A stretch of 64,000 bases of DNA. Origin: Sediminicoccus rosea (GTDB lineage Bacteria; Pseudomonadota; Alphaproteobacteria; Acetobacterales; Acetobacteraceae). The position numbers were made by a program, and so were the translations under genes. The notes beneath the pieces were generated by a model. The model had not been told where the DNA came from. It was given only the letters and a program-made list of their open reading frames with translations, and made no database searches. Position 1 is the stretch's first letter. Each line of letters starts with the position of its first letter. Location: NCBI RefSeq assembly GCF_033547095.1, contig NZ_CP137852.1:3403501-3467500 (forward strand). Reading direction: 5' to 3'. Shown here in pieces: positions 37,083 through 53,803 of the stretch.

Positions 37083-37616
37083 ATGAACGAAGAAGATCGC
37101 GTCTTCGCCCGCTTCAAAGGCAACAAGCCGGAGGCTTCAGGCCGGCGCGAACAACTGACGATACCAGGTCGCGCCGGGACTTCGGGCAGCAGGGTCGTGG
37201 AGGTTGTGCACGTTCGGTCCAACGCAACGATGAAGGACCGGCCACGCCACGTCGACACGCGTGTTCGCGCTGCGCCCTGGGACGGCAGCTTCCTCGCAAA
37301 GCAGACCGCCGCGGGTGCTGTGCCGGTCCAGCCGATGGCTGCTGAATCGGCAAAGCCGGTCCGACACATCGTTGCCAAGGAGGAGTTGCCATCGGTGGAG
37401 ACCGGAGGGGCGCCATTGCCGAGCGTAGGGGAGCCAGTCGTTGCAACGCTCCAGGGACGCGGGAGGCCTCACCAAGAGACGCCCTATACGCCGACGAGGC
37501 GCATTGCTGACCCGTTCGACGCAGGCGACGACGGTGCCAACTGCCTGCGCTGCGGCTACTCGATCGAAACAAAGCGGCAGAAACGCGGGCTAATGACCTG
37601 CTCCGAATGCGGATAA
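37083..37616 (+). CDS. Orphan protein with C-terminal zinc ribbon
   Basis: A 177-residue protein of unknown function. Residues 1-145 are charged and low in hydrophobic residues, probably disordered. The last 25 residues contain CLRCGYS and CSECG about 20 residues apart, a treble-clef or ribbon zinc site. There is no strong ribosome site. It precedes the 2064-residue gene by 426 bases on the same strand. Confidence 0.5.
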   Translation: MNEEDRVFARFKGNKPEASGRREQLTIPGRAGTSGSRVVEVVHVRSNATMKDRPRHVDTRVRAAPWDGSFLAKQTAAGAVPVQPMAAESAKPVRHIVAKEELPSVETGGAPLPSVGEPVVATLQGRGRPHQETPYTPTRRIADPFDAGDDGANCLRCGYSIETKRQKRGLMTCSECG

Positions 37617-38042
37617 GTCAGGCCGCCTTCCCGACATTGTCCAAAGTTGGCCAAGAGTCGAAAGCCTTCTACGTTATTCTGCCATCGTAGAAGCTGCCGT
37701 AAGGCTGACGGCAACCGCTCAATACTGGGGACATCGGCGCAAGCGGTAAACGGGCCGGCCAGGGTCGAAGCTGAACCGCAACGTCGAAGGCCATGGCGTC
37801 AAGTCGCCGGGGACGTTCGGATCATGGTCGTGCTCTCGCGGAATGCCGAGCCGACATTAGCGCCGATCTCCCTCGATGTGGGCGCTCGTCGAATGGTCGC
37901 CCCAACTAAGGGCACAAAAAGCTGATCTAGTCATCGGTCAGCTGCAGATTAAGGCTTCCGCTTCGACACAGGTCTGCGCGCGAGCACTAACCACCTATCC
38001 GCATGTTCCGCATGCGTCCCCGGGGCGGTATGGTTCGTCTAG
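37617..38042. other. Intergenic region before the giant gene
   Basis: No convincing gene. A short repeat (CCGCATG twice near 38000) forms a dyad just upstream of the giant gene. I see no strong Shine-Dalgarno sequence before its ATG. Confidence 0.35.
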
Positions 38043-41000
38043 ATGCCCTCGATTCGCGTAAACCGGCACCTTCCCGTGCCCTTTCACGAGATGCCCTCCG
38101 ACGGGTTCGAGGCAATGACGGTCTCTCTCTTGGACAAGGAGCCGGGGGTCGTCAGCGCTACCCTTTATCGCACAGCTCGCCAGCTTCAATACGGCATCGA
38201 TGTCCTCGCACGTCGCCAGGACGGCACTATCGAGGTCGCCTCGTGCAAGTGTTACGCGGCCGTGGACAAGGGCGAGCTGAAGGAGTGGTCGGACGACTTC
38301 CTGAAGCACTGGGACGGGCACTGGAAGGACCAGAAGGTTCGCCGCTTCACTCTCGTCGTGGCGGCGAACGTCCACTCGGCACAACGTGACGCGGAAGTCC
38401 AGCAGGAACGAGAGCGGTTCCTGCAAATCGGGGTGGAGTACGAGGTGTGGGCCCCTCATCAGATTCAAGAGAAGCTCAGACCACATTCCGGTATCGTCGC
38501 CCAGCACCTCGGCATGGAGCACCTGGAGCGGGTCTGCGGCGTCGTCTCCGCACCGTTTAACATGCTCTCGGCGGCTAGCGCGGTCCCGAACGGCCCGTCG
38601 GCGGCGGCCCTCGACGACCTGCGGAGGTTGATCTCGCAGTCGGTGGGGCACCGGCTCGATCATCTGCTGGCTCGCTTCCGGACCGGGGAGGTTTCGGCGA
38701 CGGCCGCTGCACTCCAGGAAATCCGCGGTGGGACGGAGTGGGATGCGCTAGAGGCGGGGACGAAGGCTCGCGTGCTTCGGCTCCAGGCGTCCATTTTTCT
38801 CCACGCTGGTCATGACGCGGCCGCCTCGACGCTTGCCGATGAGGCGGACGCCCTCGAGCCACAGACGGAGCCCCGTCTCCGGGCGGTGCTTACCTATCGC
38901 CGCGCCGGTGCGTCCGCCGCCCTTGAGGTGCTCGGCGATCCCACGTCCCAGGACGGCGCGCACCTCCGCGCCGCGCTCCTACTCGACCAGGGGAAAGTAG
39001 CGGCAGCGGGGGCGGTCCTGGCCGACCATCAGGCGGTCGAGGCGGACCACGCGGAAACGCTGCGGTTACGGGCGCTCGTATCGCTCATGGAGGGTAGCCG
39101 AGAGACAGCGCTGCGCTTCGCGGACGCCGCCCACGCGGCAGCGCCGGGGTCGCCCGCGACGATGCGGGTTGCCGCCATCGCCCACTACGCCGTGGCGCTC
39201 TCCCCTGCCTTCGGTCCGGAGCACACAATCCAGCCCAACCCCGTTCCCCTCGATCTCGTGCGCGAGGACGCGACTTCACGGGGCCACATCCTTCGCGCCC
39301 TCGAGATCCTCGATGCGATGGGCCGCAAGGAGCTAGACGCCTCGGAGCGCCGGGAAACCGAGGTGTTCGCCCTCGCCTGCCTATGCAACTTGCGGGACCG
39401 GTCCGCCGACGCTGCCGCACATCTCAAAAGGATGCTCTCCGCAGATCCGGCGTGGGTGGCCGCGGCTCATTGGGGACTGGCGCGGGGCCTGCCCCTGGAC
39501 CGGGGCGCCCTTCGGGATGCGATCCAGGATCGGATCGTGCGCGGGGATGCCGACGCCGATGGGGTCATTCTCCTCGCGTTGCTAGAGGCGTCCGACGGCA
39601 GGGTCGGGGAGGCGATCGCCATCCTGGAGGCCTCGACCGCCTTCCCCACGCCCGAGGCGCTCGCCATTCGGGATGGCTGGCTGTGGAAGTTGCGTCGCAC
39701 GCAACCCGGAGCGGATGAGGGGGCCGACGAGCCTGACGCGATCTATCTCGAGAGGACGGTGGAGGCGGCGAGCAGCTCGGGCGACTGGTCTGCAGCCGAG
39801 GCGCTGTTGGGGCGGCTCGCGGCGCAAACGGGGCGTCCGGACCCGCTTATGCTGCCCCTGGCGCAAGCGCTCGCCGCCTCGGCGCGTTGGACTGCGATCC
39901 TCCGCCATAGGGATGCCCTGCTGGCGCTGGGGACGTCGGAGCCGGTCCGGGTCATCGTCTATGCAGCTGTGCACGGGGGCGAGCCCAGGACCGCGCTCGA
40001 CATCCTCCGCCTTCACCGGGAAGTCTTCCCGGGAGGGCGGCTCCCGTCCGACCTTGCTCGCCTTGAGGTAGATGCCCTCGCGGGGGTGGGCAATCAGGCG
40101 GGAGCGATTCGCAACGCGGTGCTGCTGGCGAGCGCCGAGTCCTCGACGGTGGAGGACCAACTCATGGCGGTGGCGGCGCACGTGCGGGCGGGAGATGTCC
40201 GAGCCGCCGTGCCCTTTGCCGAGGCGGCCAGGCGTTCCGGCAGGCTCGCACCATTGCATGCCATCCAACTGGCCCAGGCGATCGCACCCGCAGACCAAGC
40301 TGTAGCGACTTCCCTGCTCCAGCATGCCCTCACGGGCCCCATCGAGCCCGAACTCGCGCCGGGGGCGATCTCGCTCGCATTCCGCCTCGGGCTCGAGCGC
40401 CAGGCCGCGCCCCTGCTGGCCGGGGTGATGCCGCTGGGCGACCAGCCAGGATCGGGCGTGTGGACCGTCGATATGGAGAGCCTTGAAGACTTCCTGCGGC
40501 ATCAGCACGAGGTAGCCGAACGCCTCTCCCGCATGCACAGGTCGGGCGACGTTCCCGTCCACCTCGCCGCCGACCGAGGCGGAAGCAACCTAGCGCGGCT
40601 CTACCTGCTCGAGGACGAGGGACAAGAAGGGCGGGGCGGCTACCCAATGCTTACGCTTCACGGGAGCCGATCGGCGAGGAACGTTGAGTCTCCCGAACTT
40701 GGGGATGGGCCAGTACATGTGGACGTCACTGCCCTACTGATCGCCGATCAGCTCGGCCTGATAGACCTGCTGGAGCGGATGGCGGGTCGAGTCCTCCTTC
40801 CGCCCTCGTTGCCCCACGCCCTCCTTCAAATGGAGGAGAAATTGCGACCACACCAACCCGCAAACCTCGCGGCGATGCGCGAGGTGGCGCATCTCGCTGG
40901 GACGACGACGGTGGGGATCTTAAGCAGGGAAACTACTCCGACGGGCCAGGAGCTCGGAGGGCTGCGGGGCGACGGAGGACTGGGGCAATGGTTCCTAGAC

Positions 41001-44000
41001 TTTGATCGCGATCATGATGATCCACCGCGCTCTATTCCCCACGCCGGGATGGGGACGCTGAACCTTCGGGGCATGGCAGACGCACTGTTGGCAGAAGGAG
41101 CGATCGACCCGGATGTTCACCGTGCGGCACTTGATCGCCTCGGCCGCGCAGGGGACAGGCCCGCGATCGGCACGCCCGCCCGGCACGACCAGGTCGTCTT
41201 GGCGGATTTCGTAGCCGTCGAGCTCTCGGCGGCAGGAATCCTGGCGAGCGCGGCACGGATATTCCGTCTTCTTCTCGGCGACGACGCCCTTCAGGCGATA
41301 CGTGCGGAAATCGGCCGTGCGGAGGAACGAGAGGTCCACGCCAACAGGTTGGCCATTCTGCGGGCGCGAATTGCGCGGAACCTCGTGGCCGGTACGTTCA
41401 GCACTCTTCCATCGGCCGAGCGGGAAGATGCCGACAACGCCGGCCCCACGACCCGCTGCCTTGTCGAACTCCTCCGCGCGCCGGGGACCGAGGGCGGCAT
41501 CACCTGGATCGATGATCGGTACATCACAGCCCATGGTCTGTGTGGCGCGAACCGCGTGTTCGACACCACGGCGATGCTGGAGGCGCTTGCGCAAGCCGAA
41601 TGGATAACACCGGGCCAGCGCTGGACGGCCCAACTCCTTCTACGGGAAGCGAATGTACTGTTCGTCCCGATCACGGCCGATGAGGTCATGCATCACCTTC
41701 GCGCCGCCCCGGTCCGGGACGACGCGGTCGTCGAGACTGCTGCCCTCGCCACCCTGCGTCGATATGTCGCGAAGGCGCTGGCGGCGGCGACGGACCTGGA
41801 TATCCGACCCGTGCTGGCCGGAACTGGTCCCGGGGAGATGCCATTCCTCCTTGCCCTCCGGAGGCTGGTCGAGGACACGTTGCTGGCGATCTGGACTGCC
41901 GACGAGGGCACCATCGAGGAGCGTGAGATCCGATCGTCGTGGGTGTGGTCCTCGCTCCGGGTGGACCAATTGCCCGATCTCGGCCTGCCCGGCACTGCGC
42001 CGGGCTCCTGGCGATCGCTTCTCACCCTCGGCTATGCGGCACTACTCGCGAATGGGGTGCATATCCTCCTGCAGGTGAAGGGAGCGGACCAGAGGGGCAG
42101 GTTGCAAGCTTATATGGCGTGGGTAGGCGGTGCCGCAGTCCCACCGTGGATCACGGCCGACGACGTGTTTGCAAAAGACGTCGCTGACATACTGGCCGGA
42201 ATGCTTACTGGCCTTGGCGACGAGAGCGAAGGCGGTCGCAAGCTAGGGCGGGAAGGTCGTAAGACCGTACAGGCGCTGCTTGGGGAAGTTGTGATGAACG
42301 TGCCGGAGCCGTTCCATGACCACTTACTCGCACTTCCCGTACTATGCCGCGCCGCAGGGATTAGCCGGAGCGAGGTCATCATGGTCGGGGGGCTTCGGTT
42401 TATCCCATCCTCCCTTTGGAAGGCCGTCGAGGCGGCGCTCGCTGGAGGAAGGGCCTCGGTCAAAACGAGCGACGGCCGGGGCACGCTACGCCTGAAGACC
42501 CGGCAGGGACGAGCCACCGGTTTGGCGTTGTCGGGGGCTCTGGAGGGGGTTCTCGATGACCCCGCGCTTGGGCTCCTCTCGCGGGACCGAGCCGTCAGGC
42601 TCAGGACGGCGCGGACTATCCTGGACGGTCTGGGGATGGCACCCGCCGACGCCGCGGCTGCGGTGGAGAAACTCGCCGCGGCTGAGAGGTTAGCGGATAG
42701 GATGGATGCGGCCACCCGTCTGAGACAGGCGAGCATCCACGCTCGGCGGAGAGACCTGCAGGAGCGGCTTCGGTCGCGTGCGACTATTCCTTGGAGCGAT
42801 TTCGGCCCTCCTGATCCGGGATCGCTCCTCCGCTACGTTGGGCTGCTGCCTAACTCCGGCACGCCTGAAGGCGACAGGTTCGCCGATGCCGCCCGCAGGC
42901 TGGTTAGAGATTTTGGCACAGCTGAGGCCGTTCGACGGCTCGCCTCCCTTCCGATCCCCCTTTCCGACGAGTTGCTCGCCTCCATTCGGGCTTTGCCGAT
43001 GCATGATCGCGCGGACCTCCTGGTGGATCTCGGCGGCGCGGCGTCCACGCCGGTGCAACGCCTGCACTGCCTCAGGATCCATCGAGATCTGCGGGGCGCC
43101 GGTATCGGCGATCGCGACGCCTTCGCCGAGGCGTTGCGCGCGCTGCCCGCGTTGTGGGACGCGCACGCCCGACTGTTTCTTGTCCTACTCAAGCAGTTCG
43201 GTGAGGAGCTGCAACCAGACGGCCCTACGTCACGTGGCTTGAGTGCCGAAGAGGCGATCGTGGCTTCCTGGATGCATGCGGATCACGTGACACGCTCGAT
43301 CCTGGCGGCCGGATCGGAGCCGGTGGAAGCGGCGCGACGTCTCTCAGGCCGTCGCGTCCGGCGCGAGGCGGCACGCGCAGTTCTCTTCCGCCAGGGTTAC
43401 GACAATGCGGCCGCGGCACCCGCGTCCATGACCTCAGAGGGGTTGCTGTTCCACGGATTGGGTTACGCGCTCGGAACCGAGCAGCCCCGAGAGGACGCAT
43501 TGCCGGATGTGCATCTTCTTGACGGGCTCCTAGACATCCTCTCGGCCGGAACCGGGGATCGTCGGATGCCCGCCCCCTGGATATATGCGGACAGAGAAGG
43601 CGCGCGTGACGTCCTCGGCACGTGGTTCCGAGAACGGCCATCCTGGCTCTTCCCTGAAGAGGTCGGCGTGACGACCGAGGCCGCCCGTATCACTGTTGGC
43701 TCGGCGCTCGGAGAGCTGAACGTTGTCCAGGCAGGCCAAGCACGGCTCTGGCTGGTTCTCAGCATCGTGGCAAGGCCGCACCTGGACGAGGAGCGCCGGG
43801 GCATCGCTGCGAAGGCTGTCTCCGCCTTGGACCTTCGGAAACTGGGTGAGAACGACTCGGAGATCGGGATGGTCGCCTTGAGGTGTGCGGCGGAACTCGC
43901 CCAGGCTTCCGGCAACGATGCCGCGCGATCGGCCTTCGAAGAGAAGCTCGCCTGCTATGCGGAATGGTTGGCGGAGCGGCGCGGCGGACGATTGCTCCCG

Positions 44001-44237
44001 GGAGACAAGGAGGATGTTGTGCTGAATATGGTTGAGGCAGCAGCGGCCTGCTCACGGTCCGACAGCACGGCCGATGGCTTCGACCGCTTCGGACGTCTGA
44101 TGATCGCGTTGGCGACCGCATGGCCAAGCATCGCACCGCATGTCCGCGACGTTATCGGTTCGCTTGCCTCGGACGCTCATCCCACAACGTCGGCTCCGAT
44201 CCAGGATGCTTGGCTGAAGCTCCGCGCCATGAACTGA
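38043..44237 (+). CDS. 2064-residue protein: Mrr-like nuclease domain, TPR-like repeats, PIN-like segment
   Basis: The function is unknown. Residues 15-170 resemble Mrr-type PD-(D/E)XK nucleases: E23 in the first helix, D53 in QYGIDVLARR, then IEVASCKCY with K69. The usual Q/E before xK is Ser67 here, so activity is uncertain. Residues 190-880 are Ala-rich helical pairs like TPRs. D894 in VHVDVTALLIADQLGLIDLL starts a PIN-like segment, and WIDDRYI (D1157, D1158) may be its acidic end after an insert. The rest is helical. No Walker A motif was found, which separates it from STAND/Avs proteins. Recombinase cassettes and metal genes flank it. An antiphage or antiplasmid role is inference. Confidence 0.6.
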   Translation: MPSIRVNRHLPVPFHEMPSDGFEAMTVSLLDKEPGVVSATLYRTARQLQYGIDVLARRQDGTIEVASCKCYAAVDKGELKEWSDDFLKHWDGHWKDQKVRRFTLVVAANVHSAQRDAEVQQERERFLQIGVEYEVWAPHQIQEKLRPHSGIVAQHLGMEHLERVCGVVSAPFNMLSAASAVPNGPSAAALDDLRRLISQSVGHRLDHLLARFRTGEVSATAAALQEIRGGTEWDALEAGTKARVLRLQASIFLHAGHDAAASTLADEADALEPQTEPRLRAVLTYRRAGASAALEVLGDPTSQDGAHLRAALLLDQGKVAAAGAVLADHQAVEADHAETLRLRALVSLMEGSRETALRFADAAHAAAPGSPATMRVAAIAHYAVALSPAFGPEHTIQPNPVPLDLVREDATSRGHILRALEILDAMGRKELDASERRETEVFALACLCNLRDRSADAAAHLKRMLSADPAWVAAAHWGLARGLPLDRGALRDAIQDRIVRGDADADGVILLALLEASDGRVGEAIAILEASTAFPTPEALAIRDGWLWKLRRTQPGADEGADEPDAIYLERTVEAASSSGDWSAAEALLGRLAAQTGRPDPLMLPLAQALAASARWTAILRHRDALLALGTSEPVRVIVYAAVHGGEPRTALDILRLHREVFPGGRLPSDLARLEVDALAGVGNQAGAIRNAVLLASAESSTVEDQLMAVAAHVRAGDVRAAVPFAEAARRSGRLAPLHAIQLAQAIAPADQAVATSLLQHALTGPIEPELAPGAISLAFRLGLERQAAPLLAGVMPLGDQPGSGVWTVDMESLEDFLRHQHEVAERLSRMHRSGDVPVHLAADRGGSNLARLYLLEDEGQEGRGGYPMLTLHGSRSARNVESPELGDGPVHVDVTALLIADQLGLIDLLERMAGRVLLPPSLPHALLQMEEKLRPHQPANLAAMREVAHLAGTTTVGILSRETTPTGQELGGLRGDGGLGQWFLDFDRDHDDPPRSIPHAGMGTLNLRGMADALLAEGAIDPDVHRAALDRLGRAGDRPAIGTPARHDQVVLADFVAVELSAAGILASAARIFRLLLGDDALQAIRAEIGRAEEREVHANRLAILRARIARNLVAGTFSTLPSAEREDADNAGPTTRCLVELLRAPGTEGGITWIDDRYITAHGLCGANRVFDTTAMLEALAQAEWITPGQRWTAQLLLREANVLFVPITADEVMHHLRAAPVRDDAVVETAALATLRRYVAKALAAATDLDIRPVLAGTGPGEMPFLLALRRLVEDTLLAIWTADEGTIEEREIRSSWVWSSLRVDQLPDLGLPGTAPGSWRSLLTLGYAALLANGVHILLQVKGADQRGRLQAYMAWVGGAAVPPWITADDVFAKDVADILAGMLTGLGDESEGGRKLGREGRKTVQALLGEVVMNVPEPFHDHLLALPVLCRAAGISRSEVIMVGGLRFIPSSLWKAVEAALAGGRASVKTSDGRGTLRLKTRQGRATGLALSGALEGVLDDPALGLLSRDRAVRLRTARTILDGLGMAPADAAAAVEKLAAAERLADRMDAATRLRQASIHARRRDLQERLRSRATIPWSDFGPPDPGSLLRYVGLLPNSGTPEGDRFADAARRLVRDFGTAEAVRRLASLPIPLSDELLASIRALPMHDRADLLVDLGGAASTPVQRLHCLRIHRDLRGAGIGDRDAFAEALRALPALWDAHARLFLVLLKQFGEELQPDGPTSRGLSAEEAIVASWMHADHVTRSILAAGSEPVEAARRLSGRRVRREAARAVLFRQGYDNAAAAPASMTSEGLLFHGLGYALGTEQPREDALPDVHLLDGLLDILSAGTGDRRMPAPWIYADREGARDVLGTWFRERPSWLFPEEVGVTTEAARITVGSALGELNVVQAGQARLWLVLSIVARPHLDEERRGIAAKAVSALDLRKLGENDSEIGMVALRCAAELAQASGNDAARSAFEEKLACYAEWLAERRGGRLLPGDKEDVVLNMVEAAAACSRSDSTADGFDRFGRLMIALATAWPSIAPHVRDVIGSLASDAHPTTSAPIQDAWLKLRAMN

Positions 44238-44370
44238 GAATAGTCGCTTCTGTTTCGCTACCCCCTGAAGCGGAGTTGCCAAGTCGCAGCGACGTCCGCT
44301 TCCGAGGCCCCACGATCGCGCGTTTCATGACCGTTTTGAACTCGAAACAGACACCGCAGACGAGGACCAA

Positions 44371-44763
44371 CTATCCTGCCGCCACGCGCTTGCGCTGCTC
44401 TGCCCAATTCTCGGCAACGGACGCGAGCAACCTCAGCAACCCATGATTAGGAAAAGGCCGGTCGTCCAAGATCTCCTCGACGAGGTCCGGGGATAGTAAG
44501 GTGAGTCGGAGCAGGCGCCCGAGGTAGCCGCGGTCGATCTTCTCAGCCGACGCGAATTCGGTCACCGATCCGTACCGCCCTTCGTCCAGCAGGCGCTGGT
44601 ACCGGAACGCCCTAGCCAGCGCCTTCACGACAGCCGGGTCCGCGCGGCTGGCAAGCGCGGCTGGCGTGATCTGCTCACCAGCCGGCATCACTACCACTTT
44701 CCGCCCCGGCCTCCGCCGGATAGCCAGCGGCACCCGGACTGTGATGCTGGTCGTCACCGTCAT
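44371..44763 (-). CDS. ParB/KorB-like HTH partner of the recombinase (left copy)
   Basis: A 130-residue protein beginning MTVTTSITVRVPLAIRRRPG. A helix-turn-helix-like region (SVTEFASAEKIDRGYLGRLL) lies in the second half. A close paralogue at 45977 follows the intact recombinase in the same way. Its start overlaps the truncated recombinase stop by four bases. It may help the recombinase choose its sites. Confidence 0.65.
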   Translation of the reverse strand: MTVTTSITVRVPLAIRRRPGRKVVVMPAGEQITPAALASRADPAVVKALARAFRYQRLLDEGRYGSVTEFASAEKIDRGYLGRLLRLTLLSPDLVEEILDDRPFPNHGLLRLLASVAENWAEQRKRVAAG

Positions 44764-45188
44764 GCCGCCGCCCTCAGAGCATCGGGCCGAATGGCAGTGA
44801 GATCGCGGACGAGGCCGCCGAGCCCGTCCAGCCGCAGCCGAATGTCCGCGCCCCCCGGGCCAACCACCACCCGCTCCACCAGCAACCGCACAATGCGCGC
44901 CTGCTCCGCCGGGAACAGTTGCTCCCACAGCGGGTCGAGCCGATGCAGCGCGTCGTGGGTCTCGCCCTCGGTTAGGTCCGGCGCCTCCCGGCGCCCCGCC
45001 CGCCAGGTGCCGACCACGATCTCCGGCTGGCGCAGCAGCGCCCGCACCTGGTCCACGACCGCGGTCTCGATCTCCGCCGCCGATACCCGGCGGACGATGC
45101 TGACTTCGCCCTTCAGCAAGCTGCGGGCCATACGAGAGGTAAAGTCGGCCATTCTCTCAGGCGTTGGCCAGCGACAGCGCCCGGCCAT
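44760..45188 (-). pseudogene. Truncated serine recombinase (C-terminal remnant)
   Basis: The frame carries about 115 residues nearly identical in pattern to the C-terminus of the recombinase at 46393 (SIVRRVSAAE, RQPEIVVGTW, DALHRLDPLW, RALRAAA end). The catalytic N-terminal domain and DNA-binding core, about 330 residues, are absent. Only the end survives, still linked to its downstream HTH gene. Confidence 0.8.
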
Positions 45189-45273: not shown

Positions 45274-45843
45274 ATGATCGATCCAGCTCTCATCGCCCGA
45301 CGTCGGGCTTTTAGCCGAAAGCCATACGCCACGCTGTCCGACGTCGGACTGGACGGCGAATACGTTTCCCCACTCCAGATCTTGGCCGCCTCACCAAGTG
45401 GCCCGGTTCTGATAGCGTACCACTGGCTTGATGCTGCCACAGCGCGCAAGAAGGCGGCGTGCCTTCGTAATCTCGGCTACCTGCCCACCTTGAACTTCAA
45501 CAAGGTGGTCGACGCGGCGTTGAGGATCGGCGGACTGACGAGGGCAGACGTTTACATGACACAAGCCTTCCACCTTCTCCCCGCCAAGCGTTCGGCTGCC
45601 ATTCCGGCAGGCGATGTGGATGCCAGCTTCGCGGCCATAACCCGGTATGAGCTTCAGGGGCGCCGGGTGATAGCCCTAGGCACAGCCGCAGCAAGGGCGT
45701 GCAAACGAGGAGGCGTGACACCGGAACAGATTGTGATGCACCCCAGTGCCCGTGGGCTCTCGTTCGATGCAAAAGCGAATGTTTTGGCCAGCGCGATCCT
45801 GAAACTCACCGTGCCAGCTAAAGCGCTCGAGAAAGGTATTTGA
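45274..45843 (+). CDS. Uracil-DNA-glycosylase-like fold protein
   Basis: A 189-residue protein. The segment GRRVIALGTAAARACKRGG and the later MHPSARGLSF resemble the late strand and the HPS(A)R loop of the uracil-DNA glycosylase superfamily, and PTLNFNKVVD could hold the earlier Asn. The usual GxDPY motif is not seen, so an inactive or divergent member is possible. It sits between the two recombinase cassettes, like cargo. Confidence 0.45.
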   Translation: MIDPALIARRRAFSRKPYATLSDVGLDGEYVSPLQILAASPSGPVLIAYHWLDAATARKKAACLRNLGYLPTLNFNKVVDAALRIGGLTRADVYMTQAFHLLPAKRSAAIPAGDVDASFAAITRYELQGRRVIALGTAAARACKRGGVTPEQIVMHPSARGLSFDAKANVLASAILKLTVPAKALEKGI

Positions 45844-45976: not shown

Positions 45977-46396
45977 TCAGGCCGTGCCCACGTGGCGATC
46001 GATGCTTCCTCCGCGCAGCAGCAGCCGGTTCCGCTGACACGCCCAGGCCTCGGGGATCGGCTCTATCAGTTTAGGCAATGCGATGCTTGGAGGAGCCTTT
46101 CCATCGAGCACCAACTCGACAATGTCTGGCGCCAGCAAGGTCAGCCGAAGCAAGCTGCCTAGGTAGCCCCGCTCGACCTTCTCCGCCGCAGCCATTTCCG
46201 TGATCGACGCATAGCGCCCCTCGTCCAGCATCCGCTGATACCTGAACGCTCGTGCCAGCGCCTTCACCAGCGTGGGATCGGCACGCGTTGTAACCGGCGC
46301 CACGCCATCCGGCATCGGCGTCACGACCATCTTCCGGCCGGGCCGGCGTCGGATGGCCAGCGGCACCCGGACCGTGATGCTGGTCGCGGTCGTCAT
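45977..46396 (-). CDS. ParB/KorB-like HTH partner of the recombinase (right copy)
   Basis: A 139-residue paralogue of the 44371 gene (TSITVRVPLAIRRRPGRK shared; SITEMAAAEKVERGYLGSLL helix-turn-helix-like). The start overlaps the recombinase stop (ATGA). It has a longer and different C-terminal tail than the left copy, so the two have diverged at their ends. Confidence 0.7.
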   Translation of the reverse strand: MTTATSITVRVPLAIRRRPGRKMVVTPMPDGVAPVTTRADPTLVKALARAFRYQRMLDEGRYASITEMAAAEKVERGYLGSLLRLTLLAPDIVELVLDGKAPPSIALPKLIEPIPEAWACQRNRLLLRGGSIDRHVGTA

Positions 46397-47745
46397 GCGG
46401 CAGCCCTCAGAGCGCCCGGGGACATGGCGCCTAGGTCGCGGACAAGCCCGTGCAGCCCCTCCACGCGCAACCGGATATCGGCGCCATTCGGACTCACCAC
46501 CACCCGCTCCACCAGAGATCGCACAATGCGCGCTTGTTCCGCCGGGAACAGGTGCACCCACAGTGGATCAAGCCGATGGAGCGCGTCGTGGGTCTCGCCC
46601 TCGGTAAGGTCCGGCGCCTCCACGCGCGCCGCCCGCCATGTGCCGACCACGATCTCGGGCTGCCGCAGCAGCGCGCGGACCTGGGCGATCACGGCCGCCT
46701 CGACCTCGGCTGCCGACACGCGCCGCACAATGCTGGCGTCGCCGGCGGCGTCGCCCTTCAGGACCCGCTGGGCCACGTAGTAGCGGTAGAGCCGGCCGTT
46801 CTTCCTGGCGTGGGTCGGCGACAGTGCCCGCCCGTCCACCCCAAAGATCAGCCCCTTCAGCAGCGCAGGCGTCTGCGCCCGGTTCTGGTTGGCGCGGACT
46901 CGCGGGCTGATCTGCAGGACGGCGTGTGCCCGATCCCAGAGTTCCCGCGGCACGATGCCGTGGTGCTCGCCGGGATAGACCTGCCCCTTGTGCGAGGCCT
47001 CCCCGACGTAGGTCCGATTGTTCAGCAGCTTGTAGACATCACCCTTGTCGAGCGGTCGCCCGGACTTGCTGGTGGCGCCCTCGGCCCGCAGGCGGGCCAC
47101 CGTCGCGATGCCCGACCCGGTCTCGGCAAAGATCTCGAACACGCGGCGCACGCGTGGGGCTTCCTCCTCGTTCACCACCAGCTTCCTGGCTACCACGTCG
47201 TAGCCGAGCGGCACCTTGCCCCCCATCCACATGCCACGGGCGCGGGAAGCCGCGAATTTGTCGCGAATGCGCTCGCCGATTACCTCGCGCTCGAACTGCG
47301 CGAAGCTGAGCAGGATGTTGAGCGTCAGCCGACCCATGCTGGTGGTCGTGTTGAAGCTCTGCGTCACGGACACGAACGTCACGCCGTGCGCATCCATAAC
47401 CTCCACCAGCTTGGCGAAATCCATCAGCGAGCGGCTGAGCCGATCGATTTTGTAGCAGACGATCACGTCCACCAGGTCGGCCTTGATGTCTCGCAGCAGG
47501 CGCTGCAGTGCTGGCCGCTCCAGGGTGCCACCGGAGAAGCCGCCATCGTCGTAGCGGTCGCGCAGCAGAACCCAGCCCTCGGCCCGCTGGCTGGCCACAT
47601 ACGCCTCGCAGGCGTCGCGCTGCGCGTGCAGAGAGTTGTAGGCTTGGTCCAGCCGCTCATCGGTTGAGACCCGGCTGTAGACCGCGCAGCGAAGCTTCTT
47701 AACGGTTGCCGGCATGGCCGGCTCGATGCGGGTTCGGCGGCTCAT
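46393..47745 (-). CDS. Large serine recombinase
   Basis: A site-specific recombinase of 450 residues. The resolvase domain has YSRVSTDE with catalytic S27, then CYKIDRLSRS and the QFEREVIGERIRDKF helix. A recombinase domain (GYDVVARKLVVNEEEAPRVR) and a zinc-ribbon-like segment follow. It is coupled to DUF2924 upstream and the HTH gene downstream (ATGA on both sides). It may excise or integrate this island. Confidence 0.93.
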   Translation of the reverse strand: MSRRTRIEPAMPATVKKLRCAVYSRVSTDERLDQAYNSLHAQRDACEAYVASQRAEGWVLLRDRYDDGGFSGGTLERPALQRLLRDIKADLVDVIVCYKIDRLSRSLMDFAKLVEVMDAHGVTFVSVTQSFNTTTSMGRLTLNILLSFAQFEREVIGERIRDKFAASRARGMWMGGKVPLGYDVVARKLVVNEEEAPRVRRVFEIFAETGSGIATVARLRAEGATSKSGRPLDKGDVYKLLNNRTYVGEASHKGQVYPGEHHGIVPRELWDRAHAVLQISPRVRANQNRAQTPALLKGLIFGVDGRALSPTHARKNGRLYRYYVAQRVLKGDAAGDASIVRRVSAAEVEAAVIAQVRALLRQPEIVVGTWRAARVEAPDLTEGETHDALHRLDPLWVHLFPAEQARIVRSLVERVVVSPNGADIRLRVEGLHGLVRDLGAMSPGALRAAA

Positions 47746-49471: not shown

Positions 49472-52327
49472 GTGCGAGATCACCCTGTTGAAGTCGCTGA
49501 TGATCGGAAGGGCCTCGAAAGAGGCCCGACGGAGATGCGAACTCGTCGTGAGTTTCGCCTGACCTTCGGAACAGCTGATGACCAAACCGCGCCGTGGACC
49601 GACATCCGAAGCCTCACCTGGTCAGATATCTGCGGCCTACTGACGCGCCACCAGATCGGCCCCAAGAAAGGCACCTGCATCGTGCCCGCGTGCTTTCGCG
49701 GTAAGCGACGCAAGAAGGTTGACGCAGACCGCATTGAGATTGCGATGCTCGACAGCGATGCGGGCGCAACCCTGGACGAGATTGCAGCTGCCCTACGAGC
49801 GCTCGGCTGGGCCGCGATCATCAGCTCGACCCATTCGCACCTGAGCATCCACACAACGGCCAAGAGACTGAACTGGGACAGGTTCAAGCAGGCGCATGGC
49901 GACACACCTGACCTCGCCCAGGCATTCCTCCAAGCGGAGCGCAGCTACCTCCCCGGCATCGCGGTCGGCGCCAGGCTGATTACTGAGACCGAGAATGAGG
50001 TCGTGCTCGAGCATCAGCCCTGCCCCAAGTTTCGCGTCACCATCCCCCTGCTACATCCGTGGGTCGCCGGGTCCTATCCCGACCAGAACACCGCAAATGC
50101 TGCCTGGGCCAATGCTATCGCAGCCCTCGCTCATGCGCTGGGGCTGCGATATGACGAAGCCTGCAAAGACACATCGCGGCTCTTCTACCTCCCGCGGCGA
50201 CCTGCCGATGCCCCCCCACCCGAAACGATGGTCCTGGATGGCGCCGCGTGCGACATCTTCAGTCTGCCGGCATCTCTTGCTGCGGTCGGCTCCCCGCGCA
50301 ACAGAACGCACACCGCTCGCGCCGCGGACCAGAAGGCGCAGCACAGGACCTGCACCGGACCGCTCGGCTTTGGTTTCGACTTCGGTCATTTAGAGGTCAG
50401 TGACCCAGAGACGGGCGAACTGTTCAACCTCACGACCTGGGCTTCCAGCAGCGCCGCGCACTTCCAGATCGTAGACGCCCTTAAGGAGCGTCGGCCTGAC
50501 ATCCTGCTGGGCAAAGTCGCCGACGGCACCAAGCATCACATCCGCTGCCCCAATGAGGAGGCCCATACCCAGGCAGGGGCAGATCACGCCACCTTCCTCG
50601 TCAACGCCAGCGAGAGTACCAGCAGCGGCTTCGTGATCCACTGCCGCCACGCGCACTGCACGGATCGGGACAGGCTGCTCTTCCTCAAGCAGATGATCGA
50701 GCAGCGATGGCTCACCATCGAGGATCTGCAGAACCCTGTCTTTCTGCCAGGGCAGCCGGATCCGCTCCCCCTCATCCGTATCAAGGGCGGCGCGCTGCCT
50801 GAAGTCATCCAGCAGGTCGAGGACGCGCTGCTGGCCGAGCCATTCCGCATCTATCAACGTGGTGGTGAACTTGTGCGGCCTGGCCGAGCCAGCACCCCGC
50901 TAAAGAATGCGGCCAGCCATTCAACACCACGCATCGTACCGGTCGAGGCGCACGCGCTCGTCGAGGTCATGTCGCAGGCCGCCCGCTGGGAACGCTTCGA
51001 CGGCCGGACCAAGGAGTGGACGCGGATTGATGCTCCACTGACCGTCGCCAGAACCTATCTCGAGCGACGCGGCCTCTGGCGCCTGCCTGCGCTCGCCGGC
51101 GTCATCACGGTGCCAACCCTCAGAGCCGATGGCAGCATCCTGCAGGAGCCAGGCTACGACAAAGCCACGGGGTTGATCCTTGAACGCGATCAGGGGGCCT
51201 GCGCCAGCATCCCGGACCAGCCGTCCCGCGCCGATGCTTCAGCGGCCCTGGCCCTGCTGAGCCAACTCGTCGAGACCTTCCCCTTCGTCGATGGTGCCAG
51301 TCGCTCCGTGGCCCTCTCCGCCATCCTCACATCCCTCATCCGCCGAGGCCTGCCCACCGCGCCGCTCCACGCCTTCTCAGCACCAGTCCCAGGCTCCGGG
51401 AAATCCATGCTGGTCGATCTCACCAGCGTGATCACCACGGGGCGCAGCGCCGCTGTCATCGCCCAGGGTCAGGGTGAGGAGGAACTTCAAAAGCGCTTGG
51501 GCGCACTCCTCCTGGCGGGCGACCAAGTGATCGCCATCGACAATTGCGAGGCGCCACTGGGCGGGGAGTTCCTCTGCGCTCTCCTGACCCAGCCCGTCGT
51601 GCGTGCCCGCATCCTTGGGCGATCTGAGGCACCCGAACTGCCCACGAGCGCCTTCATCACAGCGACGGGCAACAACCTGGTCCTACTCGGCGACATGACC
51701 CGGCGCGCGCTGTTCTGCCAGCTCGATCCCCAGGTCGAGCGCCCTGAGCTACGGGAGTTTACGAGCAACCCACTCCGGCAGGCGGAGCAGGATCGCGCCG
51801 CGCTAGTGTCCGCAGGTCTCACGATCCTCCGCGCCTACCACGTCGCAGGATATCCCGATGCGCCGACGCCGCTCGGCTCGTTCGAGGCCTGGAGCCGGTG
51901 GGTCCGCGGCAGTCTGATCTGGCTGGGCGAGGCAGATCCCGTGCAGACCATGGAGACCGCACGGGAGACAGACCCGAGGCTCGATGCCCTCTCCAGCATC
52001 CTTGCTCAGTGGCACGCCATCATCGGTGGCACGGCTGTCAGCGTCCGGGACCTCATCGAGAAAGCTACCCAGATGAACACGCCGCCCGAGCAGGCCTTCC
52101 CGCGCACGCCCCGATACGAGTTCCGCCATCCCGACTTTCGCGAGGCGCTCCTCGTCGTGGCCGGAGACAGCGGCGTGATCAGCAGCCGACGCCTCGGGAA
52201 GTGGCTCGCTGCCCAAGCCGGCCGTTGGCTGAACGGCCTCTGCATCCAGCGCGGCACCGTCGTCAGCGGCAATCAGCGCTGGACCCTTACGCAACAGAAT
52301 GGAGGTGAGCATGCGCGCGCAGCGTGA
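49472..52327 (+). CDS. Phage/plasmid-type primase-helicase
   Basis: A 951-residue fusion. The N-terminal 300 residues resemble a RepB/primase-polymerase domain (IEIAMLDSDAG with its acidic pair, IISSTHSHLS, RLFYLPRRP). A Cys/His-containing linker (around residue 360-400) follows. A helicase ATPase domain starts near residue 635 with Walker A VPGSGKSML and IDNCEAP as a Walker B-like site. GTG 49472 is used here; ATG 49535 is an alternative. It should initiate replication of the element at the iteron-like region downstream. Confidence 0.8.
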   Translation: MRDHPVEVADDRKGLERGPTEMRTRREFRLTFGTADDQTAPWTDIRSLTWSDICGLLTRHQIGPKKGTCIVPACFRGKRRKKVDADRIEIAMLDSDAGATLDEIAAALRALGWAAIISSTHSHLSIHTTAKRLNWDRFKQAHGDTPDLAQAFLQAERSYLPGIAVGARLITETENEVVLEHQPCPKFRVTIPLLHPWVAGSYPDQNTANAAWANAIAALAHALGLRYDEACKDTSRLFYLPRRPADAPPPETMVLDGAACDIFSLPASLAAVGSPRNRTHTARAADQKAQHRTCTGPLGFGFDFGHLEVSDPETGELFNLTTWASSSAAHFQIVDALKERRPDILLGKVADGTKHHIRCPNEEAHTQAGADHATFLVNASESTSSGFVIHCRHAHCTDRDRLLFLKQMIEQRWLTIEDLQNPVFLPGQPDPLPLIRIKGGALPEVIQQVEDALLAEPFRIYQRGGELVRPGRASTPLKNAASHSTPRIVPVEAHALVEVMSQAARWERFDGRTKEWTRIDAPLTVARTYLERRGLWRLPALAGVITVPTLRADGSILQEPGYDKATGLILERDQGACASIPDQPSRADASAALALLSQLVETFPFVDGASRSVALSAILTSLIRRGLPTAPLHAFSAPVPGSGKSMLVDLTSVITTGRSAAVIAQGQGEEELQKRLGALLLAGDQVIAIDNCEAPLGGEFLCALLTQPVVRARILGRSEAPELPTSAFITATGNNLVLLGDMTRRALFCQLDPQVERPELREFTSNPLRQAEQDRAALVSAGLTILRAYHVAGYPDAPTPLGSFEAWSRWVRGSLIWLGEADPVQTMETARETDPRLDALSSILAQWHAIIGGTAVSVRDLIEKATQMNTPPEQAFPRTPRYEFRHPDFREALLVVAGDSGVISSRRLGKWLAAQAGRWLNGLCIQRGTVVSGNQRWTLTQQNGGEHARAA

Positions 52328-52332
52328 TGCCC

Positions 52333-52472
52333 GTGGTGGGTTTGGTGGATTTAGTGGGTTTCTTTTGACCCTTACGCGAGAAGTGTCAGATGCATTGATT
52401 ACTATATATCCGTGTCTGACAGTTTTATGGGGGAGGCGGGAACCAACCCACCAAATCCACCAAACCCACCAC
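52333..52472. repeat. Nested inverted repeat of 9-bp repeats around an AT-rich core (origin candidate)
   Basis: The left arm (52333-52360) and right arm (52445-52472) are 28-bp inverted repeats with 27 matches. The left arm has three tandem 9-bp units, GTGG(G/A)TTTN, at 52336, 52345 and 52354; the right arm has three in inverse orientation. Between them TGTCAGA (52384-52390) and TCTGACA (52415-52421) enclose the AT-rich core with ACTATATAT. Repeated sites, an AT-rich core and a primase gene next door resemble an iteron origin. Confidence 0.7.
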
Positions 52473-52507
52473 CTCGCCCCGCGCGCCCTCTGCGCCGGAG
52501 GTGCCGC

Positions 52508-53803
52508 ATGAGCGCCGCACCCTTTGCGCAGGCCAGCGCCTTCCCGCGCTACAAACCCGCCCGGGTGGATGAGCTCATCCCCTACGCCCGTAACGCCCGA
52601 ACCCACTCAGACACCCAGGTCGCGCAGATCGCCGCCTCCATACGGGAGTTTGGCTTTACCAACCCCATCCTGGTCGATGGCGAGCGGGGCATCATTGCCG
52701 GGCACGGGCGCCTCATGGCCGCGCGCCTGCTGGGCCTTACAGAAGTGCCAACGCTTGAATTGGCCCATCTCACGCCAATCCAGCGCCGCGCCTACATCCT
52801 CGCCGACAACCGCCTGGCCCTCTCCGCCGGCTGGGATGCCGACATGCTCCGCCTCGAGTTGGGCGAGCTCCAGTTCGAGGGCTTCGACCTCGGTCTCACT
52901 GGCTTCGATAGCGACGAGATCGCAAGCTTCCTCGCCGAGCCCACCACAGGCCTGACCGACCCCGACGAGGTCCCTCCCCTCCCCAAGACACCCGTGTCCC
53001 GATTGGGCGACGTCTGGGTCCTCGGGCGCCATCGCCTGGTCTGCGGCGACAGCACCGACGCCGACACCGTTGCTGCGGTGCTTAGCGGAGTGCGGCCCCA
53101 CCTCATGGTGACCGATCCGCCCTATGGCGTGAACTACGACCCCGCCTGGCGCAACGCCGCCCTCACCGGCAGCCAAACCCAGCGAACCGGCAAGGTGCTG
53201 AACGACCACAGGGCGGATTGGCGCGAGGCCTGGGCGCTCTTCCCAGGGGACGTCGCCTATGTCTGGCACGGCGCGCTCCACGCCACGACAGTGGCCGAGA
53301 GTCTCACCGCCTGCGGCTTTGACATCCGAGCCCAGATCATCTGGGCCAAGGAGCGCCTGGTGATGGGGCGCGGCCACTACCACTGGCAGCACGAGCCCTG
53401 TTGGTACGCCGTGCGGGATGGCGCCACAGGACACTGGGCCGGCGATCGCAAGCAGACCACGCTTTGGTCCATCAGCTCCCGCGCCCAGGATGCGGACACG
53501 GTTCACGGCACCCAGAAACCCGTCGAGTGCATGCGCCGGCCGATCGAGAACAACTCCTCCCCCGGCCAGGCCGTCTACGAGCCCTTCTCCGGTGCGGGCA
53601 CAACCATCATCGCCGCGGAGACCTCGGGCCGCGCCTGCCACGCCGTTGAGCTCTCCCCCGACTATGTCGATGTCGCTGTGCTCCGCTGGCAGGCCTTCAC
53701 AGGCCAGCAGGCGCGGCTGCACGGCGATGGCGCCAGCTTTGCGGAGATCGCACAGGCCCGCGGGACTGCGGCGCCTGGTGAGGCCTTGGAGGGCACAGCA
53801 TGA
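52508..53803 (+). CDS. ParB-like domain fused to DNA methyltransferase
   Basis: A 431-residue protein. Residues 15-100 form a ParB/Srx-like domain (ELIPYARNARTHSDTQVAQI, GERGIIAGHGRL). The methylase part has the catalytic DPPYG at 203-207 before the SAM-binding EPFSGAGTT near residue 360, the order of beta-class N4/N6 enzymes. No restriction enzyme is adjacent, so it may protect phage DNA. GGAGG upstream supports ATG 52508. Confidence 0.88.
   Translation: MSAAPFAQASAFPRYKPARVDELIPYARNARTHSDTQVAQIAASIREFGFTNPILVDGERGIIAGHGRLMAARLLGLTEVPTLELAHLTPIQRRAYILADNRLALSAGWDADMLRLELGELQFEGFDLGLTGFDSDEIASFLAEPTTGLTDPDEVPPLPKTPVSRLGDVWVLGRHRLVCGDSTDADTVAAVLSGVRPHLMVTDPPYGVNYDPAWRNAALTGSQTQRTGKVLNDHRADWREAWALFPGDVAYVWHGALHATTVAESLTACGFDIRAQIIWAKERLVMGRGHYHWQHEPCWYAVRDGATGHWAGDRKQTTLWSISSRAQDADTVHGTQKPVECMRRPIENNSSPGQAVYEPFSGAGTTIIAAETSGRACHAVELSPDYVDVAVLRWQAFTGQQARLHGDGASFAEIAQARGTAAPGEALEGTA

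Follow-up and report, generated by a model that had tools for sequence, protein, structure and literature searches.

The window analysed here is a 64,000-nucleotide stretch of the Sediminicoccus rosea genome (contig NZ_CP137852.1, positions 3,403,501 to 3,467,500), and it contains one very large gene, which encodes a protein of 2,064 amino acids. From its N-terminus onward, the protein appears to comprise an Mrr-like segment of the PD-(D/E)XK type, a scaffold of tetratricopeptide repeats (TPR), a helix-turn-helix (HTH) segment, a PIN-type core, and a long C-terminal extension (Table 1). A sequence-only reading had put this gene forward as a candidate undescribed defence gene, with two nuclease-type parts and TPR-like repeats in one polypeptide lacking an ATPase. 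The architecture it described was borne out at both places, with an N-terminus of Mrr-like type and a core of PIN type, and the neighbours, plasmid-borne relatives, and sporadic distribution of the gene point to a probable role in defence. However, the gene is not of an undescribed kind. It represents a long variant within an already predicted class, the TPR-GreA/B-C-PIN conflict systems, and not a new class.

The open reading frame (ORF) had no internal stop codons, and its GC content at the three codon positions was 0.744/0.506/0.756. A homologue in Neoroseomonas eburnea (L019), also of 2,064 amino acids, aligned without gaps over the full length at 85% identity. In a codon comparison of the two, the ratio of non-synonymous to synonymous substitution rates (dN/dS) was 0.23 overall and ranged from 0.13 to 0.43 across eight segments, with the highest value in residues 1001–1100, while the first 180 residues gave 0.20. 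These values indicate purifying selection and, together with the gap-free homologue, that the frame is a true gene rather than a chance one. All residues named in the sequence-only reading (E23, D53, S67, K69, D894, D1157, and D1158) were found where it had placed them. Its claim that the protein has no Walker A motif, and so is not a standard STAND/Avs protein, also held: neither of the P-loop patterns [AG]x4GK[ST] and GxxGxGK occurs in the protein, which removes a STAND/Avs NTPase from consideration, and no NTPase family was among its Pfam matches. The sole NCBIfam match was a type III secretion system chaperone, at 17.1 bits where the cut-off is 70, and no PADLOC model matched at an E-value of 1.

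The strongest domain call was made at the N-terminus, where profile comparison supports an Mrr-like PD-(D/E)XK segment. Here and below we use a family alignment, A4, of 17 sequences that includes the window protein and leaves out P0007, the fragmented L016, and H6 and H11–H15. A profile of residues 1–200 from its 14 Mrr-type members matched a 27-sequence Mrr_cat profile with a score of 70 and a probability of 97.3% (hhalign). By the same measure, 49 segments of up to 200 residues along the protein had a median score of 10.5, and those beginning at or beyond residue 161 scored no more than 14.5. The reference sets for these comparisons used 27 of 30 loci for Mrr, 26 of 30 for GreA, and 30 of 30 for PIN; loci near contig ends (L079, L080, L098, L107, L122, L129, and L134) were left out of the Mrr and GreA sets.

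The motif was consistent with this call in part. The window protein retains D53 and K69 of the catalytic D...(Q/E)xK, and K69 is present in 14 of the 17 aligned sequences, the other three carrying different N-termini. Position 67, the Gln place of the motif, is Gln in nine and Ser in five of the 14 Mrr-type members, the window protein being among the latter. E23, which the sequence-only reading had included in its Mrr-like segment, is not conserved in the alignment. An AlphaFold2 model built from six sequences gave residues 19–136 an alpha-beta-beta-beta-alpha-beta-alpha-beta order compatible with PD-(D/E)XK, at a low predicted local distance difference test score (pLDDT). In fold comparisons of this model, the 50 matches listed per answer were TPR or other helical-repeat proteins, with no restriction endonuclease (REase) among them. 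Compared with Mrr-type restriction endonucleases (PF04471), the window protein shares a core PD-(D/E)XK segment with D53 and K69 but differs in having Ser67 for Gln and in being fused to a core of 1,900 residues.

Behind this segment, the helical repeats seen earlier proved to be TPRs for residues 187–386. AlphaFold2 modelled an array over residues 201–380 with a pLDDT of 67–93 per ten residues, and comparison of residues ~200–383 with solved TPR structures gave a best Z of 15.1 to 2pl2_A (root-mean-square deviation 3.0 over 176 residues). The repeats thus lie between effector and PIN, as they do in TPR-GreA/B-C-PIN systems.

The PIN-type core was recognized through homologues. The window protein itself had two Pfam matches, both sub-threshold (HTH_upst_double_PIN at 814–855 and Permuted_GreAB-C at 1448–1480), and alone did not reach the PIN-TPR-GreABC model, PF20698. 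At an E-value of 0.1 or better, 14 of the 17 sequences in A4 matched HTH_upst_double_PIN (best 7.4e-22), 7 matched PF20698 (best 6.3e-12), 4 Permuted_GreAB-C, 2 Mrr_cat, and 1 Peptidase_C14, a caspase family. The name of PF20698 is what ties the family to the TPR-GreA/B-C-PIN systems. D894 and R1159 are invariant in the alignment, as is W1360 farther along; position 1157 is Asp in 14 sequences and Glu in three, position 1158 is Asp in 16 and Glu in one, and at position 1094 Glu occurs in 14 sequences and Asp in one.

We compared these segments with a profile built from the PF20698 domains of nine archetypal proteins. Residues 885–940 and 1095–1200 of the family, joined, scored 39.9 with a probability of 85.6%, whereas 45 clean controls with the same joined geometry reached at most 19.3. 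Residues 885–1045 alone scored 34.6 and aligned to the first 45 columns of the profile, and residues 1045–1200 alone scored 23.2. In relatives with a single PIN (L147/L160, L148/L161, and L150/L162), a sub-threshold PF20698 match spans the whole interval from the D894-type strand to a CDDR motif. These comparisons firmly relate the first half of the PIN segment to PF20698 and tie in the second half by colinearity, supporting, through homologues, the assignment of D894 and D1157/D1158 to a PIN-type core.

Between the PIN residues lies a stretch of ~155 residues that is missing from three relatives, so the PIN may be doubled, with one half of each copy contributing to the active site. The intervening stretch (~936–1092) holds what looks like a second, degenerate PIN-like first half; the half copies are in register, although their match is weak (score 19.2, probability 16%). 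The long-form active site is probably formed by D894, E1094, and D1157/D1158, which would meet across this internal segment. A further proposal is possible but tentative, and we would not yet favor it: that the PIN is nested, with its site built from the D894 half and the E1094/D1157/D1158 half, that the degenerate ~155 residues serve as an internal lock or sensor absent from single-PIN relatives, and that, with the Mrr-like effector, this would make a one-gene, ATPase-free defence cutting both RNA and DNA.

The N-terminus of this family varies on a constant core. By profile and motif, 14 of the 17 aligned sequences carry an Mrr-like N-terminus on the long core. Elsewhere the long core carries a caspase (P0005, Leptolyngbya, E 1.9e-9), a Death-like bDLD3 segment (L160, 2.2e-26; L161, 5.9e-22), or a PNP_UDP_1 phosphorylase (L162, 5.2e-16). 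Another relative, L165 (genome G970), starts with the same residues as P0005 and may be from the same strain. P0009 (Azospirillum) and L024 have unassigned N-termini. Moreover, core and N-terminus vary independently at the level of sequence: the cores of P0001 (REase) and P0005 (caspase) are 54% identical and their aligned N-termini 26%, and for P0001 and P0003 the corresponding values are 69% and 80%. Because the same core persists whether the N-terminus is a caspase, a phosphorylase, or Death-like, it has a role of its own.

This constancy could also mean that the main effector activity lies in the PIN core, with the N-terminal domain only sensing or tethering DNA as a catalytically weak REase retained for binding. 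The variable N-termini, some of them adaptor-like (bDLD3), and the Ser at position 67 of the window protein would suit such a division of labor. Still, D53 and K69 are kept, the low dN/dS extends over the first 180 residues, and other relatives have enzymatic N-termini, and we consider this explanation unlikely.

Conflict systems of this general design, reportedly the prediction of Aravind and co-workers, are already on record. The 2021 paper (eLife 2021;10:e70394, PMC8195603) describes a constant, fast-evolving core of TPR, GreA/B-C, and PIN with an N-terminal EAD10 or one of 13 effectors, REase included; it calls the systems widespread in bacteria and their genes mostly standalone, and proposes that they act on RNA polymerase. 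A list of anti-phage systems within PMC9503650 also names "TPR-GreA/B-PIN systems." Given this prediction with exchangeable effectors, and Pfam models (HTH_upst_double_PIN, PIN-TPR-GreABC, and Permuted_GreAB-C) that match the protein or its homologues, the word "undescribed" in the sequence-only reading does not stand.

The apparently new element is the long form, with its doubled or split PIN and a long core common to several effectors. Both it and the archetype (~1,300 residues) have an exchangeable N-terminal effector, TPR, a PIN of the PIN-TPR-GreABC type, and a standalone gene, but the window form is ~750 residues longer. Whole-protein scans of five of the nine archetypal relatives (L151, L153, L155, L156, and L157; 1,288–1,356 amino acids) placed PF20698 within 993–1141 in all five and a sub-threshold GreA_GreB match within 811–888, between TPR and PIN, in three. 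The window form has HTH_upst_double_PIN at that place instead, its PIN is doubled or split by ~155 residues, and its candidate GreA/B-C-like segment would be permuted and would follow the PIN rather than precede it. In our samples, PF20698 occurred in 13 of 349 genomes of the phylum (9 above the cut-off) and in 3 of 281 genomes of a cyanobacterial class (none above it).

The long form has a conserved C-terminal extension. A profile of residues 1500–1800 matched L160, L161, L162, and L165, and one of residues 1800–2064 matched the same relatives except L161. Two shorter HTH-double-PIN proteins, L029 (1,411 amino acids, its N-terminus bearing the Mrr-type D/Q/K motif) and L164 (1,265 amino acids), match PF24407 and PF20698 above the cut-off and have the double-PIN layout of the window protein; however, they show no match to its C-terminal extension and, by eye, keep the Asp in the second PIN half copy. 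DefensePredictor DS-3 (PMC13092281) also counts, by its description, among the closest known systems.

The gene is sporadic, and plasmid-borne members are known. Homologues were found in 2 of 289 genomes of the class sample and in 2 of 195 relatives, its own genome included in each count; the other match in the class sample is the shorter L029. In the cyanobacterial-class sample, 15 of 291 genomes matched, with three near full length (two already known), three partial, and nine short TPR-type. A pattern scan of genome contigs gave six loci. Matches were also present in 15 plasmid records (8 conjugative, 2 mobilizable, and 5 non-mobilizable), with the matches of three confined to the first 230 residues or fewer, and in none of 50,697 phage records. 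The distribution in the class sample and relatives disfavors a conserved housekeeping gene, which, had all homologues been of that sort, would have counted against the sequence-only reading. Its other refuting outcome, no nuclease fold in either segment, likewise does not hold in full, since a nuclease family is matched by the N-terminus. The genome itself holds a truncated second copy (C1:2363108–2365549, or L018:10109–12550) comprising ~361 5′ codons and the 1.36 kb upstream at 95% DNA identity; it has frame-changing differences and ends in unrelated sequence, which fits the gain and decay of an accessory gene. The sequence past this copy looks transposase-like by eye.

The neighbourhoods of homologues also point toward defence. 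Annotated neighbours at nine plasmid loci and scanned neighbours elsewhere vary by locus, as judged by inspection without a systematic count. We searched ten large ORFs near homologues at six loci with PADLOC, taking 1e-10 or better as a match; nine matched defence models, some only partially, compared with 2 of 10 control ORFs (one-sided Fisher p ~0.003, worked by hand). The controls were the largest ORF from 10 of 11 fixed stretches in three of the same genomes, and one control match (L175) sits on the contig of the L021 gene. Matching neighbours included an HmaB-type methylase and a PLD-type helicase (L021), PprDinG and PprPIWI (L023), and a type IIG enzyme (L008), as well as a ResIII helicase and an HNH protein directly upstream of the Neoroseomonas gene, the HNH protein matching a type IV restriction model.

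This last pairing would suit a type IV-like, modification-dependent restriction system, in which the Mrr-like domain is the sole working part and the TPR-PIN-C-terminal body is catalytically dead and reads modified DNA. In its favor, Mrr is a known restriction enzyme, no domain here is better supported than the Mrr-like segment, and comparison with ordinary PIN domains was negative. However, all 17 sequences keep D894, R1159, and an acidic residue at 1157 even though 3 of them lack an Mrr-like N-terminus, and the core persists under caspase, phosphorylase, and Death-like N-termini, which makes such a system quite improbable. Less probable again is a chromosomal protein that serves RNA processing or regulation and has nothing to do with defence. 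Proteins of cellular RNA metabolism can also contain PIN and TPR, and no defence assay was found in the literature searched, but the gene is rare, scattered, plasmid-borne in part, varied at its N-terminus, and flanked by defence-type neighbours, and the truncated second copy fits gain and loss.

We therefore think it probable that the product of this gene is a long-form protein of the TPR-GreA/B-C-PIN kind that acts against invaders on its own, with an Mrr-like effector carried on a constant core. That core (residues ~190–2064) would consist of the TPR scaffold, the HTH, a PIN domain of ribonuclease type, and a long further stretch; the interchangeable N-terminal effector would here be of DNase type. 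The protein would be kept inactive by its own scaffold, a form of self-inhibition suggested by the absence of any visible antitoxin gene or ATPase. An invader-derived signal would release it, possibly phage-engaged RNA polymerase or its transcript, following the proposal in PMC8195603. Once released, the PIN part may cut RNA and the REase part DNA, and phage growth would be stopped directly, or the cell killed or halted. If this is right, the gene would show how one large ATPase-free protein can detect infection and link the cutting of RNA to that of DNA. Together with its relatives, it forms a compact set of related long cores with different effectors, with and without the internal PIN segment.

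Several results weigh against this interpretation. The RNA-polymerase link is its weakest step because the GreA/B-C domain on which the idea is based could not be confirmed in the long form. A possible permuted GreA/B-C at residues 1446–1505 has a beta-beta-alpha-beta-beta-beta-beta order in the AlphaFold2 model, but a profile of the C-terminal domains from 26 GreA/GreB loci gave a negative comparison in both the normal and the permuted order. The Ser67 in the usual place of Gln means that the REase may be weak or dead. For the PIN, the second half alone (1095–1200) scored 13.3, inside the control range, and the PF20698 matches of the single-PIN long forms sit below the cut-off. Comparison of the family with ordinary PIN domains (PF01850) was negative (best score 17.7, probability 1.5%), which sets aside a VapC-type PIN as a direct match; the PF20698 domains themselves aligned to PF01850 over 50 columns with a score of 28.2 and a probability of 45% (12 of 13 matches used, the fragment L149 left out). 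The AlphaFold2 model of residues 795–1530 was poor (pLDDT 59, and below 50 over much of 795–1005 and 1142–1173), and the 50 fold matches listed for it were helical proteins with, by title, no PIN or GreA chain. With so poor a model, this absence is no evidence against either domain. With the PF01850 comparison negative as well, the PIN call comes from homologues only, so that the PIN-like segment of the sequence-only reading holds at the level of PF20698 homologues and conserved acidic residues but not at that of a visible fold.

The tie to the archetype is also distant and runs through PF20698, because only L152 (E 1.3e-6) of the nine archetypal PF20698 proteins matches the core profile of the family and none of the nine matches its six segment profiles at an E-value of 0.01. 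The neighbour test was small, its neighbours were chosen by size and closeness, and the helicase and methylase models are broad. Within the window, only a methylase 8 kb away matched among five other proteins searched with PADLOC. Finally, no published activity or defence experiment was found for any member in a search that lay outside most subscription journals and all supplements.

Table 1. Features of the gene and its surroundings, by position in the window
Feature	Residues	Positions	Strand	Basis
Whole gene, long-form REase-TPR-PIN protein	2,064 amino acids	38043..44237	+	Intact ORF, ATG start, close homologue
Mrr-like PD-(D/E)XK effector segment (D53, S67, K69)	1–166	38043..38540	+	Profile match, motif, model
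TPR repeats	187–790	38601..40412	+	187–386 modelled, remainder inferred; TPR-type Pfam matches in homologues
HTH_upst_double_PIN (PF24407)	814–885	40482..40697	+	E 0.002 at 814–855, sub-threshold; end set from full-length matches of homologues
PIN first half (D894)	888–935	40704..40847	+	Conservation; profile match to archetypal PIN-TPR-GreABC
Internal segment	~936–1092	40848..41318	+	Missing from single-PIN long forms L160, L161, L162
PIN second half (E1094, D1157, D1158, R1159)	1093–1200	41319..41642	+	Conservation; sub-threshold PF20698 matches in L147, L148, L150
Conserved block	1201–1310	41643..41972	+	E1214, E1231, E1265, W1284, W1300, each 17/17
Candidate permuted GreA/B-C domain	1446–1505	42378..42557	+	PF24388 E 0.0024 at 1448–1480, sub-threshold
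Conserved C-terminal extension	1521–2064	42603..44234	+	Segment-profile matches in long-form relatives
Stretch common to the window and Neoroseomonas eburnea		37714..44329	+	blastn, 86% nucleotide identity; gene with ~330 bp upstream and 92 bp downstream

The gene sits, as the sequence-only reading had described, between a metal island and mobile recombinase cassettes. Upstream are genes related to manganese and other metals, including MntH, an Fe-dependent repressor, and a MerR gene, and downstream lies a CcrA/B-like serine recombinase cassette with DUF2924. An ORF of 177 amino acids at 37083–37616 (+), with a C-terminal CxxC...CxxC, is open in both copies in this genome; it falls outside the stretch shared with Neoroseomonas and has no Pfam or NCBIfam match at an E-value of 0.01. 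On the downstream side, 44476–44982 and 46115–46615 are diverged direct copies with 73–80% identity and a spacing of ~1.64 kb, the second of which lies at the end of a serine recombinase gene; the first looks like a cassette remnant. Between the two recombinase cassette copies, 45274–45843 (+) has a weak, sub-threshold match to the uracil-DNA-glycosylase superfamily (E 0.00067).

In another genome of the class, L163 (G035:C82:26629–26817) is a GreA_GreB match of 27.8 bits inside a frame of 1,754 amino acids, and this frame does not match the core profile of the family. Farther along the window, an ORF of 951 amino acids at 49472–52327 (+) matched nothing in Pfam, PADLOC, or NCBIfam under the limits applied. 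It adjoins a fusion of ParB_N with an N6/N4 DNA methylase at 52412–53803 (+), which matches the PADLOC model MTase_II at 2.7e-113.

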